A DNA stretch of 64,000 bases from a virus. A program made the position numbers and the translations under genes. This document shows positions 5,128 through 56,320 of the stretch, in pieces. The stretch is taken from IMG/VR virus record IMGVR_UViG_3300042923_000241, positions 1 to 64,000 of that record; one strand, written 5' to 3'. A model generated the notes under the pieces. It was not told the origin of the DNA. It made no database searches and was given only the letters and a program-made list of their open reading frames with translations. Position 1 is the first letter of the stretch; every line of letters starts with the position of its first letter.

Positions 5128-5283
5128 ATGTGCATCTGCCGAACCTGCGCTGACTGCAAAATATCCGAATCCGGTCTGAGTTGCAAGCATGGCGAACGTT
5201 GGTGTTCAAGTACGGCGTGTCTGACTTGCACTTGGCACAAAGTTAAGTGCGGACTGTATGTCGAGAGGGAGGACAAGAAGTGA
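5128..5283 (+). CDS. Cys-rich mini-protein (10 Cys in 51 aa)
   Basis: 51 aa, ATG preceded by AGGAGGTTAG. Cysteines are arranged CICRTCADC, SCKHGERWC, ACLTCTWHKVKC, giving enough ligands for two metal sites. Its stop overlaps the next gene's GTG (GTGA). Function unknown. Confidence 0.6.
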   Translation: MCICRTCADCKISESGLSCKHGERWCSSTACLTCTWHKVKCGLYVEREDKK

Positions 5284-5552
5284 ACGAAATTGAGAAACTT
5301 GAAAGCGGTGATTTAGCACTTGTAGCATTTTATAAGTGTGGTAGTTATGAATCTGTTGACCCGATTGCAGTCGTTAACCTTGCCAAACTCGGACAAGCCA
5401 CAAAGCGGTACATTGCAGAACTGGCCGAGCATCACAAAACAAGCACTAACGACGATGAGTTTTATCCCTGTCTTGATCTTCTTTATGACGCAGAAGGTTG
5501 TGAAGGTTGCAAACTTGCTGAGATTTGCGGGTTGATTGCGGAGGAAAAATGA
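5280..5552 (+). CDS. Small protein with C-terminal CEGCKL-ICGLIAE motif
   Basis: 90 aa from GTG, overlapping the previous stop, with GGGAGG upstream. The C-terminal half (FYPCLDLLYDAEGCEGCKLA, then EICGLIAEEK) has four Cys and closely resembles the protein at 57097-57270 (RPCVDLDYNKEQCEGCKLYE, then ICGLIAED). The N-terminal helical part differs. Family unknown to me; a small metal-binding module is likely. Confidence 0.6.
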   Translation: MNEIEKLESGDLALVAFYKCGSYESVDPIAVVNLAKLGQATKRYIAELAEHHKTSTNDDEFYPCLDLLYDAEGCEGCKLAEICGLIAEEK

Positions 5553-27305: not shown

Positions 27306-27797
27306 ATGTATAAACTTAAATGCTTTGAAGGAACAGAACCGAGAATTGGCGTGACCGACGAATTTATAAATCGAAACAAATTATCAATTAACCAAGAAGC
27401 AGCAAAGAAGCTTCTTGAGGATACAGGAGATATGTTCGGGTTTTCTAAAGAAGTCGCCATTGAATTTGTTGATTATGATACAGCAAAACCAAATCTTAAT
27501 AACACTTACATTACAAAGGTTGAATCAGGCGAAGTCGAGTTTAGTTTTATTGCTGATGTTAAAGAAGCAACGCAAGACTTTCTTGACTATATGGTGTTTG
27601 CATGGGACAAGGCTATGGGAGAAAGAGGAATATCGGCGGGAAGAAGCATTGAAAAGCTGTCTGCTTGGATGAAAATTCTAAACAGGCCAGATATTGCCGA
27701 TGTATTACAGAGCGGCTCGCTTTACTCTCCATATGGCAGACCCGCGCTTCGCAAGGCTTGCGAAATGCTAGAGATCAAATGCCCAAATTATCTTTAA
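27306..27797 (+). CDS. Hypothetical protein
   Basis: 163 aa, AGGAGGTAGCGCA before ATG. Alpha/beta, with a helical C-terminus (GRSIEKLSAWMKILNRPDIA; ALRKACEMLEIKCPNYL). No family recognised. Confidence 0.5.
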   Translation: MYKLKCFEGTEPRIGVTDEFINRNKLSINQEAAKKLLEDTGDMFGFSKEVAIEFVDYDTAKPNLNNTYITKVESGEVEFSFIADVKEATQDFLDYMVFAWDKAMGERGISAGRSIEKLSAWMKILNRPDIADVLQSGSLYSPYGRPALRKACEMLEIKCPNYL

Positions 27798-27812: not shown

Positions 27813-28070
27813 ATGTCAACAATTAAACATCAGCCGAACTGCCAGAAATGTGGCAGAAACGGTCAAATATATGAACCACGCGACTGCAAGAAAAAACTGC
27901 CGTTGGAATGTCCTGTCTGCACGGTTGAGAATAAAGCACATCGGTTGTCGCCTGTGAGATGGCAGTCGCTGGCTGGCATTTGCCCTGAGTGTACTGGTTA
28001 TAATGGTTATCCTGGTGATGGGCTGTGTAAGAGTTGCTATGAGAATAAGTACGGTGCTGATAATGAGTAG
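27813..28070 (+). CDS. Multi-zinc-finger protein
   Basis: 85 aa with four C-x-x-C knuckles (CQKCGR, CPVCTV, CPECTG, CKSCYE), enough for two zinc sites. ATGGAGGTAGCAA upstream. Overlaps the ArpU-like regulator by 8 bp. Confidence 0.55.
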   Translation: MSTIKHQPNCQKCGRNGQIYEPRDCKKKLPLECPVCTVENKAHRLSPVRWQSLAGICPECTGYNGYPGDGLCKSCYENKYGADNE

Positions 28071-28524
28071 GGCGAATCCGTTAAGGTGGAAGATTGGGAA
28101 AGAAAGAGAAAAGTGGAATGACCCTGTTGTCGAACCGTTGCTGTGGTCTATTCCTGCAAGAATCGCTAAGATGCAGTTGCAAACAATGCCGACTTGTATT
28201 CCCAACTATCAAAGCCTAGACATGCCAAGAGGAACCGATATAACCGACAGTACCGGCAAGTATGGCATAAAGAGGGCTACAAGCGATACGCTTTCCGTAT
28301 TTGGCATAGACGCAATAGTTTGTGTTGATGACCCCGATTTAATAACTTGCAAGAATGTCGAATTGATATTCAACATGTTACAAGATGACCTTCAAGACAT
28401 CTGTGAAATGTACTATTTTCAGAAGATGAAGCCTGCGGCGATTATTGAAGTTCTAGGCATTAGCGAGAGGACTTTCTACTATAAATTGCAAGAAATGAGA
28501 GAGTTTTTCAAAAGTATTGCATAA
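28063..28524 (+). CDS. ArpU/RinA-like late-gene transcription regulator
   Basis: 153 aa. The C-terminal 55 residues (LQDDLQDICEMYYFQKMKPA, IIEVLGISERTFYYKLQEMR) are a sigma-region-4-like HTH as in the phage late activators ArpU and RinA. Located at the end of the early/middle genes, and followed by TTGCAG repeats and a promoter-like element: probably its own target. Confidence 0.7.
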   Translation: MSRANPLRWKIGKEREKWNDPVVEPLLWSIPARIAKMQLQTMPTCIPNYQSLDMPRGTDITDSTGKYGIKRATSDTLSVFGIDAIVCVDDPDLITCKNVELIFNMLQDDLQDICEMYYFQKMKPAAIIEVLGISERTFYYKLQEMREFFKSIA

Positions 28525-28581
28525 TTGCAGAAAGTTTGCAGTATTAATGTATGGAACATTGCAGTAAGCGTGGGTTATACT
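28525..28581 (+). promoter_or_regulatory. TTGCAG repeats with downstream -10: candidate late activator sites
   Basis: TTGCAG at 28525-28530, 28536-28541 and 28559-28564 (steps of 11 and 23 bp, same helix face), then TATACT at 28576-28581. No consensus -35, as expected for an activator-dependent promoter. Adjacent to the ArpU-like gene. Confidence 0.5.
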
Positions 28582-28612
28582 AATACTATGAAATAGTATA
28601 TAAAAATCAATG

Positions 28613-28636
28613 CCACTCAGAAATGAGTGGTTTTTT
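28613..28636 (+). terminator. Intrinsic terminator
   Basis: CCACTC (28613-28618) pairs with GAGTGG (28625-28630), followed by TTTTTTC. Placed right after the TTGCAG promoter, it could also act as an antitermination or attenuation point. Confidence 0.75.
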
Positions 28637-28674
28637 CTTTATGTATTCGTAATAATCGGAGATGATAAGATGAC

Positions 28675-28899
28675 ATGAAAACCGACACTTTATTGCCAAT
28701 TTGCCTAGACTGCCTTTGGCTAACCAACAATATTTGCAAACATCCTCATCCTGCAAAACCGGATGAGATTCATATATGCTATGATGGCAAGGGAATTGTC
28801 CCTGATTTGATGTATCATAGTGGGACAGACTTGTACAAGCGTAACGGGAAATGGGTTCAGCGAAAGACCGTTGAAACTGTTGCTAAGAAAAAGAAATAG
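28675..28899 (+). CDS. Small Cys-containing protein
   Basis: 74 aa. CLDCLWLTNNICKHPHP is a compact metal-binding cluster near the N-terminus; the C-terminus is very basic (QRKTVETVAKKKK). Unknown function. Confidence 0.5.
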   Translation: MKTDTLLPICLDCLWLTNNICKHPHPAKPDEIHICYDGKGIVPDLMYHSGTDLYKRNGKWVQRKTVETVAKKKK

Positions 28900-28907
28900 G
28901 TTAGAGT

Positions 28908-29711
28908 ATGAGAGAGGGAATGTGCGTGGGTGTTGAATATACGGTATATATGCACATTAACAAAACAAACAATAAGAAATATGTCGGCATAACCCGTGTT
29001 GATCCTGTAAAAAGGTGGAGTAACGGTAACGGTTATACAAAAAATAATCATTTCCACAAAGCTATTGAGAAGTATGGGTGGGATGGTTTTGAACATGAAA
29101 TACTATTTGAAAAATTAACAAAAAACGATGCTCGCAAAAAAGAAGCAGAATTGATACTTGAACACCAATCATTTAATAGAAACTATGGATACAATTTAAC
29201 ATATGGCGGTGAGTGTGGCGATGCCACTACGGAAGAAACGCGGGAAAAAATGAGGAAAGCAAACACCGGAAAACACCACTCAGAAGAAACACGACAAAAA
29301 ATAGGTAAAGCTAGTGCCGGTAGGCGGCATACAGAAGAAGCGCGACAAAAAATGAGTAAAGTGTGGTCTGGTGTGCGCCGTTCTAAAGAAACACGACAAA
29401 AAATGAGCGAAGCTAGAAAAGGACAACAAGGCACCATGTTAGGGAAAACGCATTCGCTTGAAGCACGTCAAAAAATAAGCAATGCCATGTCGGGGGAAAA
29501 CAATCCTATGTTTGGCAAGACGCTTTCGCTTGAAACAAAACAAAAAATTAGAGAAGCTAGAATTGGTAAGAAACAATCAGAATCTACGCGACAAAAAATA
29601 AGGGAAGCCAATAGTGGCAAGCGAATTTCCGAAGCTACACGACAAAAAATGTCAAATGCACAATTAGCTTGGCGCAATAACAAGAGTGTTGGCGAATTGG
29701 TGGCTCCCTAA
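28908..29711 (+). CDS. GIY-YIG endonuclease with eight NUMOD3-like repeats
   Basis: 267 aa; ATG at 28908 kept, later starts possible. GIY-YIG nuclease domain at residues 9-95 (YTVYMHINKTNNKKYVGITR, with R-W-S-N-G and the late NLTYGG). Then eight tandem 17-22-residue repeats of the form (S/T)-E-E-T-R-Q-K-(M/I)-x-x-A-x-x-G, the NUMOD3 DNA-binding motif of SegA-like homing enzymes. The end of the gene overlaps the first helix of the structured RNA region downstream. Confidence 0.88.
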   Translation: MREGMCVGVEYTVYMHINKTNNKKYVGITRVDPVKRWSNGNGYTKNNHFHKAIEKYGWDGFEHEILFEKLTKNDARKKEAELILEHQSFNRNYGYNLTYGGECGDATTEETREKMRKANTGKHHSEETRQKIGKASAGRRHTEEARQKMSKVWSGVRRSKETRQKMSEARKGQQGTMLGKTHSLEARQKISNAMSGENNPMFGKTLSLETKQKIREARIGKKQSESTRQKIREANSGKRISEATRQKMSNAQLAWRNNKSVGELVAP

Positions 29712-30420
29712 CCATGCCGAAATGCTAAAGTTCACAGACGTTTTGCCGAGCGGAAGTAAGGGAGAAAATCGGTAATAAGCGCATTGAGGAAGAACTGGCA
29801 ACTTTCGCCCTCTGTCCAATCAAGCTGATGCTTATGTTTTGGGCAGAGTAGGAGATGCAGGACTGTCACCCTGCCAATGCGCTAAAAACACTACTGCAAA
29901 AGCAGTCCTAACAATACCGTTCCATACGGTTCTAAGATTGGCACAAAGGGCGTTATGCTGATTGGAGCAGGGTTCCGATTACCGGGACGACAGCATAGCA
30001 AGCGCAGGTAGGGTGGGTACTGCGCTAAAAAAGAGCCGTTAAATCGGTAAACAACTAGAAAGCAACTGGCGGAGTGTACACCTTCAACAAATGCAATTGC
30101 TACTGTTGAATGCCGTTAGTTGCGCTGAACAAAATTTGGTTCGGATTTTTACATAGGGGAGTGTTAGCACTTCGCTTTTGGTTTTTGCCGAACCGATTAC
30201 ATCTGGCATTGCCAGCCGGTTAGTCGGAAACCGAGACTGAATTTCGACAATTGGAATTGGAATGTAGTCGGAGTCATGACCGACGAGGGCTTGCCGGAAG
30301 GCATAGCAAGCGGGATGCGTGGATGGGGCTACCCTGCACTTTATATTCGCCATTTACTCACAGTTTGTGGCTTGCAAAGGTTTTGGCTGTTGTACCCCTA
30401 AACAATGGCCTTTTAATTTT
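29704..30420 (+). ncRNA. Candidate giant structured phage RNA (ROOL/GOLLD-like)
   Basis: About 700 bp without a credible ORF on either strand but filled with perfect or near-perfect stems: 29704-29709/29759-29764, 29779-29786/29875-29882, 29810-29817/29841-29848, 29857-29861/29870-29874, 29893-29897/29902-29906, 29916-29920/29926-29930, 29952-29960/29991-29999, 29972-29977/29983-29988, 30001-30007/30020-30026, 30062-30067/30118-30123, 30083-30089/30104-30110, 30138-30144/30188-30194, 30203-30207/30211-30215, 30267-30271/30280-30284, 30289-30294/30306-30311. A rightward terminator (30385-30420) closes it. Size, phage location and ornate folding match the ROOL and GOLLD RNAs known from phages; I could not confirm a family. 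Group I intron core motifs and a group II domain V were looked for and not found. The 5' end is uncertain. Confidence 0.7.
30385..30420 (+). terminator. Terminator of the structured RNA
   Basis: GGCTGTTG (30385-30392) pairs with CAATGGCC (30403-30410, two G-U), followed by TTTTAATTTT. This gives the plus-strand orientation of the RNA. Confidence 0.65.
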
Positions 30421-30438
30421 GTTTTTGAGGTGAGCTTT

Positions 30439-30609
30439 TTGAAATTGGTTGAGTTTAGGACTAAATGTCGTTGCGGATGTGACGAAACACATTTTTGTTT
30501 TAAGATTTTAGGGTGTGGATTTGGTACTTTACTGACTGCGGGGAATGGTGGATTAAGCTGTATTGGTTTAACAACTGTTTGTCGTATTCGCCGTGTCAAG
30601 GCTTTATGA
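30439..30609 (+). CDS. Small Cys-rich protein
   Basis: 56 aa from TTG with GAGGTGAG upstream. CRCGCDETHFCFKILGCGFG then several more Cys (7 in all) and a basic C-terminus. It follows directly after the structured RNA. Weakly supported. Confidence 0.4.
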   Translation: MKLVEFRTKCRCGCDETHFCFKILGCGFGTLLTAGNGGLSCIGLTTVCRIRRVKAL

Positions 30610-30670
30610 TAAACGGTAAAGAAATATAAGTGACTAGCAATTTTAAGGGGTATTCAATGATGTTTTTGAC

Positions 30671-30701
30671 AAAAGAAAAAGACCGCCTTATTTGACGGTC
30701 T
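30671..30701 (-). terminator. Terminator of the leftward island
   Basis: On the minus strand AGACCGTC pairs with GGCGGTCT and is followed by TTTTCTTTT. It ends the leftward gene island at 30.7 kb and overlaps the last stop codon. Confidence 0.75.
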
Positions 30702-34887: not shown

Positions 34888-34949
34888 AGACTTAACTCCT
34901 TTCGGCAGGACTTGTGACCTGCTCCTGTGCATTACCGGCCCGAAGGCCG

Positions 34950-35165
34950 TCACTCTGCGATTAGCTCAAAGTGTGGAATGTCATAGTCTGAATAGCAAAA
35001 CTGCTGAATTTTACCTATTTCCATTGCGGCCTTTAACTCAGGGTCTTCATTAGCCAGAGCTTTAAGCCACTTGCTAATAGTAACCGCCATCGGATCAAAT
35101 GCTGAGTTTCTGCATCTCTGGAAAACAATATTGTTTATGTTATTAACTTTTTCTTGCAATGTCAT
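34950..35165 (-). CDS. Small hypothetical protein (island)
   Basis: 71 aa, GGAGGCGGTAAGG before ATG. MTLQEKVNNINNIVFQRCRN; helical. Unknown role. Confidence 0.5.
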   Translation of the reverse strand: MTLQEKVNNINNIVFQRCRNSAFDPMAVTISKWLKALANEDPELKAAMEIGKIQQFCYSDYDIPHFELIAE

Positions 35166-56013: not shown

Positions 56014-56181
56014 ATGGATGAACTGTTAACCAAAAAAGACCTTTGCCAATGGCTTAAAATCAGTATTCCTACTGTTGATAGGTGGAGAGCTGAAGGTTTG
56101 CCGTTTAAGAAGGTTGGGCGGCAAGTTCGTTTTGAAAAGTCAGAAGTTGAATACTGGCTTGCAAAACAAAACAAAAAGTAA
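56014..56181 (+). CDS. Small HTH protein (excisionase/MerR-like)
   Basis: 55 aa, AAAGGAGGTAGGTT before ATG. LTKKDLCQWLKISIPTVDRW then VGRQVRFEKSEVEYWL is the HTH_17 arrangement. Driven by the palindrome-overlapped promoter, so autoregulation is likely. Located within the tail genes, away from the main immunity region. Confidence 0.75.
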   Translation: MDELLTKKDLCQWLKISIPTVDRWRAEGLPFKKVGRQVRFEKSEVEYWLAKQNKK

Positions 56182-56221
56182 GAGGACTTTCGCAACCCCT
56201 CCAAGAGTACCGAAAGTCCTC
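56182..56221 (+). other. 11-bp inverted repeat between HTH and BRO genes
   Basis: GAGGACTTTCG (56182-56192) and CGAAAGTCCTC (56211-56221), 18-nt loop, no T-run. Sits in the 140-bp gap before the BRO gene; possibly an mRNA stem or a small RNA. Confidence 0.45.
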
Positions 56222-56320
56222 AACCAAAACCCTTCCGACAAGAGCTTGCTGCAGAAGGTGTTTCCTTAATTGTAGCAGATTGCTCTCCTGTCGGCAAGAG
56301 GACAGAAGGAGAGGGAAATA

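Follow-up and report, generated by a model that had tools for sequence, protein, structure and literature searches.

Introduction

Among the large structured RNAs of phages, GOLLD combines a conserved 3′ part with a 5′ part that varies (PMC12286853). Smaller RNAs act against toxic proteins: in AbiF/RCd22 a toxic phage protein is neutralised through direct binding by a neighbouring RNA (PMC12373285), and phage PhiTE mimics the ToxI RNA against the ToxIN system (PMC3475682). The PBECR proteins are predicted, in the accessible part of the paper that defined them, to have RNase activity and to be injected with the virion, and no mention of an associated RNA was found in that part (PMC5512222). For the skipping-rope RNA (Rfam RF02924) no function is proposed in the literature that we searched; its original description (doi 10.1093/nar/gkx699) lies outside that literature and may already mention a linkage of the kind described below.

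We analysed a 64,000-nucleotide stretch of viral DNA (the window; positions 1 to 64,000 of the 77.8-kb record IMGVR_UViG_3300042923_000241), in which an initial annotation had proposed that about 700 bp behind a homing endonuclease gene encode a giant ornate RNA, possibly a diverged ROOL or GOLLD or a new class.

A structured noncoding region behind a homing endonuclease gene

The features of the region and its surroundings are collected in Table 1. Its lack of a credible ORF is borne out, as the overlapping ORFs of 29712–30420 in the ORF listing are all at most 96 aa long and have no family match; the − strand ORF at 30084–30353, for example, matches nothing in Pfam or PHROGs. A decayed gene was set aside because the ORFs of the region match no Pfam or PHROG family, and the reading as a tRNA array was set aside after a tRNA search of the 64-kb window found none.

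Table 1. Features in and around the noncoding region (positions are those of the window).
Feature	Position	Strand	Evidence or remark
Sigma-70-region-4-like regulator gene (RinA/ArpU-like, DUF1492; start inferred)	28063–28524	+	PHROG 1740, PHROG 36, Pfam DUF1492
Intrinsic terminator behind regulator gene	28612–28631	+	Terminator prediction
GIY-YIG homing endonuclease gene, NUMOD3 repeats	28908–29711	+	PHROG/Pfam matches
Skipping-rope RNA domain (RF02924), lengthened variable arm	29779–29882	+	cmscan 45.7 bits, E 1.2e-7
Structured noncoding segment without known relatives (middle segment)	29884–30335	+	z −3.85, 0/200 shuffles
Most strongly folding sub-domain of middle segment	30040–30240	+	z −4.61, 0/200 shuffles
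3′ domain, new pseudoknot motif (hairpin + H-type pseudoknot)	30336–30423	+	Models R1, R2; covariation
P1	30349–30352/30368–30371, inner 30356–30358/30362–30364	+	GCCA/TGGC in window
Pseudoknot	30379–30381/30394–30396	+	GGU with ACC in P2 loop
P2	30385–30393/30402–30410	+	Carries terminator in window
Intrinsic terminator (P2 + U-rich run)	30385–30420	+	Stem 30385–30410, then TTTTAATTTT
Small cysteine-rich ORF, 56 aa	30439–30609	+	Directly downstream of 3′ domain; no Pfam/PHROGs match

The many nested stems described earlier are likewise real features of a sequence that is noncoding and unusually structured on its + strand: 29712–30420 folds with a z-score of −3.12 against dinucleotide shuffles (none of 100 as low), and the − strand is close to chance (z −1.07 in this test and −1.77 in that of the middle segment). 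As a control, 38 other 709-nt windows of the same phage gave a mean z of −0.27 (sd 1.76), and two of them fell below 29712–30420, so that folding energy by itself is suggestive and not decisive. The lowest value among the sampled windows, z −5.8, belongs to the 709-nt window starting at 56101; on the + strand at 56180–56310, between an excisionase-like ORF (56015–56182) and a Bro/antirepressor-like ORF (56321), there are two strong hairpins that are possibly a small RNA.

The GIY-YIG/NUMOD3 gene reported directly upstream is confirmed, and its stop codon lies 67 nt before the skipping-rope domain; the further statement that it ends inside the first helix is weak, as it rests on a predicted 6-bp helix near 29704–29709/29758–29763. 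The rightward terminator at the end of the region is present as described and is the only strong + strand terminator-like site from the GIY-YIG gene to 30420. A search of the + strand at 28300–30700 for sigma-70 promoters gave none, so that the RNA may arise by read-through from the endonuclease operon. The regulator gene, for which a search for relatives found none, is 1.8 kb upstream of the 3′ motif, with a terminator, a small ORF and the GIY-YIG gene between it and the RNA. For the early gene at 27306–27797 a search for relatives gave one (42% identity), in phage L123; this phage lacks the RNA, has 28 genes for tRNAs and also contains a tmRNA-like gene. Beyond 30688 the genes have a leftward orientation, and at 34906–34959 on the − strand, where two small leftward ORFs meet, there is a type-P5 twister ribozyme (52.2 bits; gathering score 37.6) that probably cuts a polycistronic leftward transcript.

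The 5′ domain is a skipping-rope RNA

The covariance-model search that the initial annotation had recommended (cmscan of 29500–30700, E up to 5) found the skipping-rope RNA and otherwise only one sub-threshold snoRNA; the ROOL, GOLLD, HEARO, OLE and group I/II intron models gave no match. Membership in ROOL or GOLLD is thus unsupported, and the 5′ part belongs to a known Rfam family, which the initial annotation had overlooked. The match spans the whole model (1–80 of 80) and its score exceeds the gathering score of 36.7. Three nested helices singled out earlier coincide with helices of this model: 29779–29786/29875–29882 is the outer helix, 29810–29817/29841–29848 the variable arm and 29857–29861/29870–29874 the 3′ hairpin. 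When the window copy is aligned with 17 other copies, the invariant GAAC.GGCA, GAGATG and CC positions are kept; the copy has the conserved GAAC.GGCA, CGC and GAGATG and a covarying outer helix with 8 of 8 pairs. The 5′ domain is therefore a skipping-rope RNA by its sequence features, although an atypical one in its arrangement. Its best upstream promoter-like site scores 7/12, short of the promoter of its own that is typical of the family (below), no T-run is found in the 90 nt behind it, and the 77.8-kb record contains no PBECR2/3 gene, a GIY-YIG gene standing in its 5′ place.

Skipping-rope RNAs elsewhere and short PBECR RNase genes

The comparison sample comprised 44 skipping-rope copies: that of the window, 13 viral ones and 30 from Bacillota genomes. 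In 31 of the 43 other copies the 100 nt upstream contain a promoter-like site scoring 9/12 or better, which is true of 12% of random stretches; a T-run follows most of the copies within 90 nt, and by these signals the stand-alone copies are typical small-RNA genes. An ORF of at least 60 aa ends no more than 160 nt upstream on the same strand in 32 of the 44 copies, and 20 of these 32 ORFs match the PBECR2 or PBECR3 RNase families, some of them as the C-terminal part of Mu-F/minor capsid proteins (the linked loci are L124–L153, L110, L112, L113, L053, L059, L122 and L091, plus the PBECR3 loci). The reverse test, in 399 Bacillota genomes, found a skipping-rope within 300 nt of 15 of the 18 PBECR3 matches in ORFs of at most 509 aa (one broken gene being counted once); all 15 are on the 3′ side of PBECR3, 13 on the same strand and 2 on the opposite strand. 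PBECR3 domains in longer polyvalent ORFs (693–2356 aa) have a skipping-rope beside them in none of five cases. Roughly one skipping-rope copy in two lacks an adjoining PBECR, and other partners are therefore possible. Skipping-rope together with a short PBECR2 or PBECR3 ORF is a candidate protein–RNA conflict system.

Two further surroundings were seen: the skipping-rope of L126 has an AP2-domain endonuclease, probably of the homing type, 37 nt upstream, and in the large phage contig L066 a skipping-rope, two drum RNAs and five tRNAs lie on one segment.

The 3′ domain is a covarying pseudoknot motif

A blastn search for distant matches to the region found three Geobacillus phages, aligned at 30338–30405 only and in an unannotated gap behind a RinA-family gene, and further members, in prophages of Aneurinibacillus and others, came from pattern scans. 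A covariance model (R1) was built from seven sequences and refined as R2; Bacilli genomes were searched with both models and viral contigs by pattern scan, which gave 19 sites with 16 distinct sequences. Two looser patterns returned chance matches only beyond the known loci.

These sequences share the P1 hairpin, a GG.–.CC pseudoknot and P2. In the 16 sequences 94.7% of the cells pair and both-sided changes occur in 10 of the 18 pairs; the covariation score is 0.431, whereas shuffles give 0.183 (0 of 500 reach the observed value) and sliding the partners gives no more than 0.129. The pseudoknot was left out of both R1 and R2, and its third pair (columns 53–67) is U–A in ten sequences, G–C in four and C–G in two, so that all 16 are paired. 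A DNA operator would agree with the dyad of P1 alone but not with the covariation of the interleaved pseudoknot helix, which speaks for a motif that acts as RNA. By its alignment, the 3′ domain of the window is a covarying structure, a hairpin with an H-type pseudoknot, whose end is an intrinsic terminator. A T-run follows P2 in the window, L006 and L155/L170, and less clearly in L171, but not in the Geobacillus phages, L160, L166 or L168; termination is hence not the function that the relatives share.

No Rfam 15 family overlaps this motif in the window, L001–L003, L005–L007, L155–L159, L166, L168, L169 or L171. The motif is new to Rfam 15, although it could have been published earlier under another name. 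The earlier suggestion of a new class is supported for the 3′ domain by its covariation. Compensatory changes, proposed then as a check, are present in the 3′ domain, whereas the middle segment has no homologue with which it could be aligned.

Surroundings of the 3′ motif and the middle segment

A sigma-70-region-4-like regulator lies upstream of the motif in L001–L003 (where it is annotated as RinA), L159, L160, L171 and the window; in L168 the gene upstream is the small terminase, and the motif adjoins terS in both L166 and L168. The islands around the motif are mosaic, with 50–100 nt stretches that are 90–97% identical between Geobacillus phages at differing offsets from it, and one 28-nt module is identical between L005 and L171. 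The motif is the sole such module common to the window and these islands, and the window's other shared module is the skipping-rope. In the genomes compared, the 3′ domain therefore recurs in unrelated Bacillota phages beside sigma-like regulators or terS, among shuffled structured modules.

Other elements of these islands were also recorded. A second structured module (CGCC.CTATT.CCCGAAACC ... GGGGTTAGGGCGG) is shared by islands of the Geobacillus phages, with a more distant version in the high-GC locus L160, at offsets from the motif start of 138–209 in L001, 77–148 in L005 and 80–125 in L160. A further noncoding block (TTGGCATCCTGA..CCTTCTC ... GGTTCGGGGTG.GAA.GATGG) can be aligned among L006, L155 and L159, about 490–740 nt after the motif in L006 and L155 and about 370–480 nt after it in L159. 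Stretches that resemble tRNAs occur in L002 (~5160–5335), L159 (~1725–1870) and L160/L167 (in the island upstream of the motif); they have a T-arm and acceptor-like ends with the middle replaced or enlarged, and ARAGORN calls none of them. At 1583–1740 in L156 genes for tRNA-Asn and tRNA-Thr come immediately after the motif, and a weaker second copy of the motif is present at 1875–1954.

The middle segment of the window has no match in phages, plasmids or Rfam, and when homologues of the whole RNA were sought, phages gave no more than the 3′ motif and plasmids gave nothing. No strong + strand terminator is found between 29882 and 30385. An exact 12-base repeat, GCATAGCAAGCG, occurs in the segment at 29993–30004 and 30301–30312, with a G-rich hairpin after each copy.

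One composite RNA or several

The order and strand of the two domains, the terminator and the genomic linkages are read directly from the sequence. Because the window's skipping-rope has no promoter, T-run or PBECR gene of its own and the next strong + strand terminator lies in the 3′ motif, the simplest reading is that it has become the 5′ part of a longer RNA extending to 30420. The folding of the + strand, both of the middle segment and of the whole, and the presence of a skipping-rope at the 5′ end and a covarying motif at the 3′ end of the same strand also count in its favour, and the proposal of a large structured RNA with a 3′ terminator is to this extent supported. A single transcript covering the 700 nt is likely; that the region encodes one composite noncoding phage RNA, about 640–710 nt long, acting mostly in trans and made at the junction behind the sigma-like regulator, is the reading we prefer, tentatively and at nearly even chances. 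Against it, the window is the only locus that carries both domains in our set of loci and the viral contig scans and, the middle being without homologues, the fusion is known from one instance only.

That the skipping-rope and the pseudoknot are each found without the other everywhere else could also mean that the region is an array of separate small RNAs (a skipping-rope, one or more middle RNAs and a pseudoknot-terminator RNA) lying side by side like the tRNAs and small RNAs of phage RNA islands and not forming one functional molecule. The free shuffling of modules in the Geobacillus islands, the stand-alone character of skipping-rope in other genomes and its proximity to drum RNAs and tRNAs in L066 all fit such an array; but this copy lacks the signals that would make it a separate unit, no strong terminator intervenes before 30385, and the unusual folding extends over the joined middle segment, so we regard the array as a serious but rather unlikely explanation. 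The terminator could instead belong to a cis-acting leader or attenuator, in which the pseudoknot and P2 form a regulated stop behind the late regulator and control downstream reading. The loci with a T-run after P2 agree with this, as do the ribosome-binding site and short ORF just after the motif in the window, L006, L155 and L159 and the terminator ahead of it in L155 and L159. The relatives without a T-run do not, the downstream genes vary and in the window soon point the other way, and a leader has no need of the 600 nt in front; we consider it improbable.

A diverged ROOL or GOLLD that forms RNA-only cages would suit the size and phage setting of the region, and the division of GOLLD into a conserved 3′ and a variable 5′ part recalls that seen here. 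The silence of both models, the assignment of the 5′ domain to another named family and the construction of the related islands from small exchangeable modules nevertheless leave this idea with very little probability. We give equally small weight to a homing-element remnant, that is, an intron or dead coding sequence behind the GIY-YIG gene, which the position of that gene and the probable homing endonuclease beside the L126 skipping-rope might suggest; the intron models are unmatched, the ORFs are without family matches, and both ends of the region are conserved RNAs with covariation.

If the composite RNA exists, it would, judging from its linkage to the regulator, be made at the onset of the late programme or at induction. 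The skipping-rope domain would bind PBECR-type RNases, as the linkage of the family suggests, and the orphan domain of the window might, more speculatively, be a decoy or immunity device against PBECR RNases of the host or of rival prophages, this phage having no PBECR of its own. The pseudoknot domain might close or stabilise the 3′ end, or might be a handle for a phage or host protein. In its widest form the proposal is that skipping-rope is the RNA partner (antitoxin or decoy) of short PBECR3 RNases in a new protein–RNA conflict system of Bacillota phages, and that the orphan copy of the window phage, built into a larger late RNA whose pseudoknot end is newly recognised, confers immunity to competitors' PBECR RNases. 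We put this forward as a conjecture that is more probably wrong than right.

The reciprocal linkage of skipping-rope to solo PBECR3 RNases is a first clue to its function. If the composite reading is right, the window is a case in which a small RNA family has supplied one domain of a far larger RNA. With the pseudoknot motif, a new phage RNA supported by covariation is placed at the early-to-late transcription junction, which is often left as an unannotated gap; since the motif recurs among structured modules that are shuffled, noncoding RNA at the late junction seems to be general and under selection.

Comparison with known systems

Like GOLLD and ROOL, the window RNA is a large structured phage RNA, but it has no match to their covariance models and its modules are smaller and exchangeable. 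Skipping-rope with PBECR3 resembles the type III toxin–antitoxin RNAs and AbiF/RCd22 in that an RNA gene stands beside a toxic RNA-acting phage protein; it differs in lying behind the nuclease gene and not in front of it, and there is no homology. The window itself differs from a ToxIN-like type III system in that an RNase toxin gene is absent, GIY-YIG being a family of DNA homing endonucleases. The packaging RNA of phi29 is, like the 3′ motif, a structured phage RNA, and in L166 and L168 the motif adjoins a packaging gene, terS, but the resemblance is one of place only. Geobacillus phages PK3.5, PK3.6 and PK5.1 (OP341626-8) have the same pseudoknot motif behind a sigma-like regulator, unannotated in their records; their islands, unlike the window, have other flanking modules and no skipping-rope, and lead into a rightward DNA methyltransferase and late genes. 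Finally, the 5′ domain of the window fits the whole skipping-rope model above its gathering score, as a member of that family should; skipping-ropes elsewhere stand alone, mostly with a promoter and a T-run, and often follow a PBECR RNase gene, whereas that of the window has none of the three, has a longer variable arm and lies within a more extended noncoding stretch, on its 5′ side.
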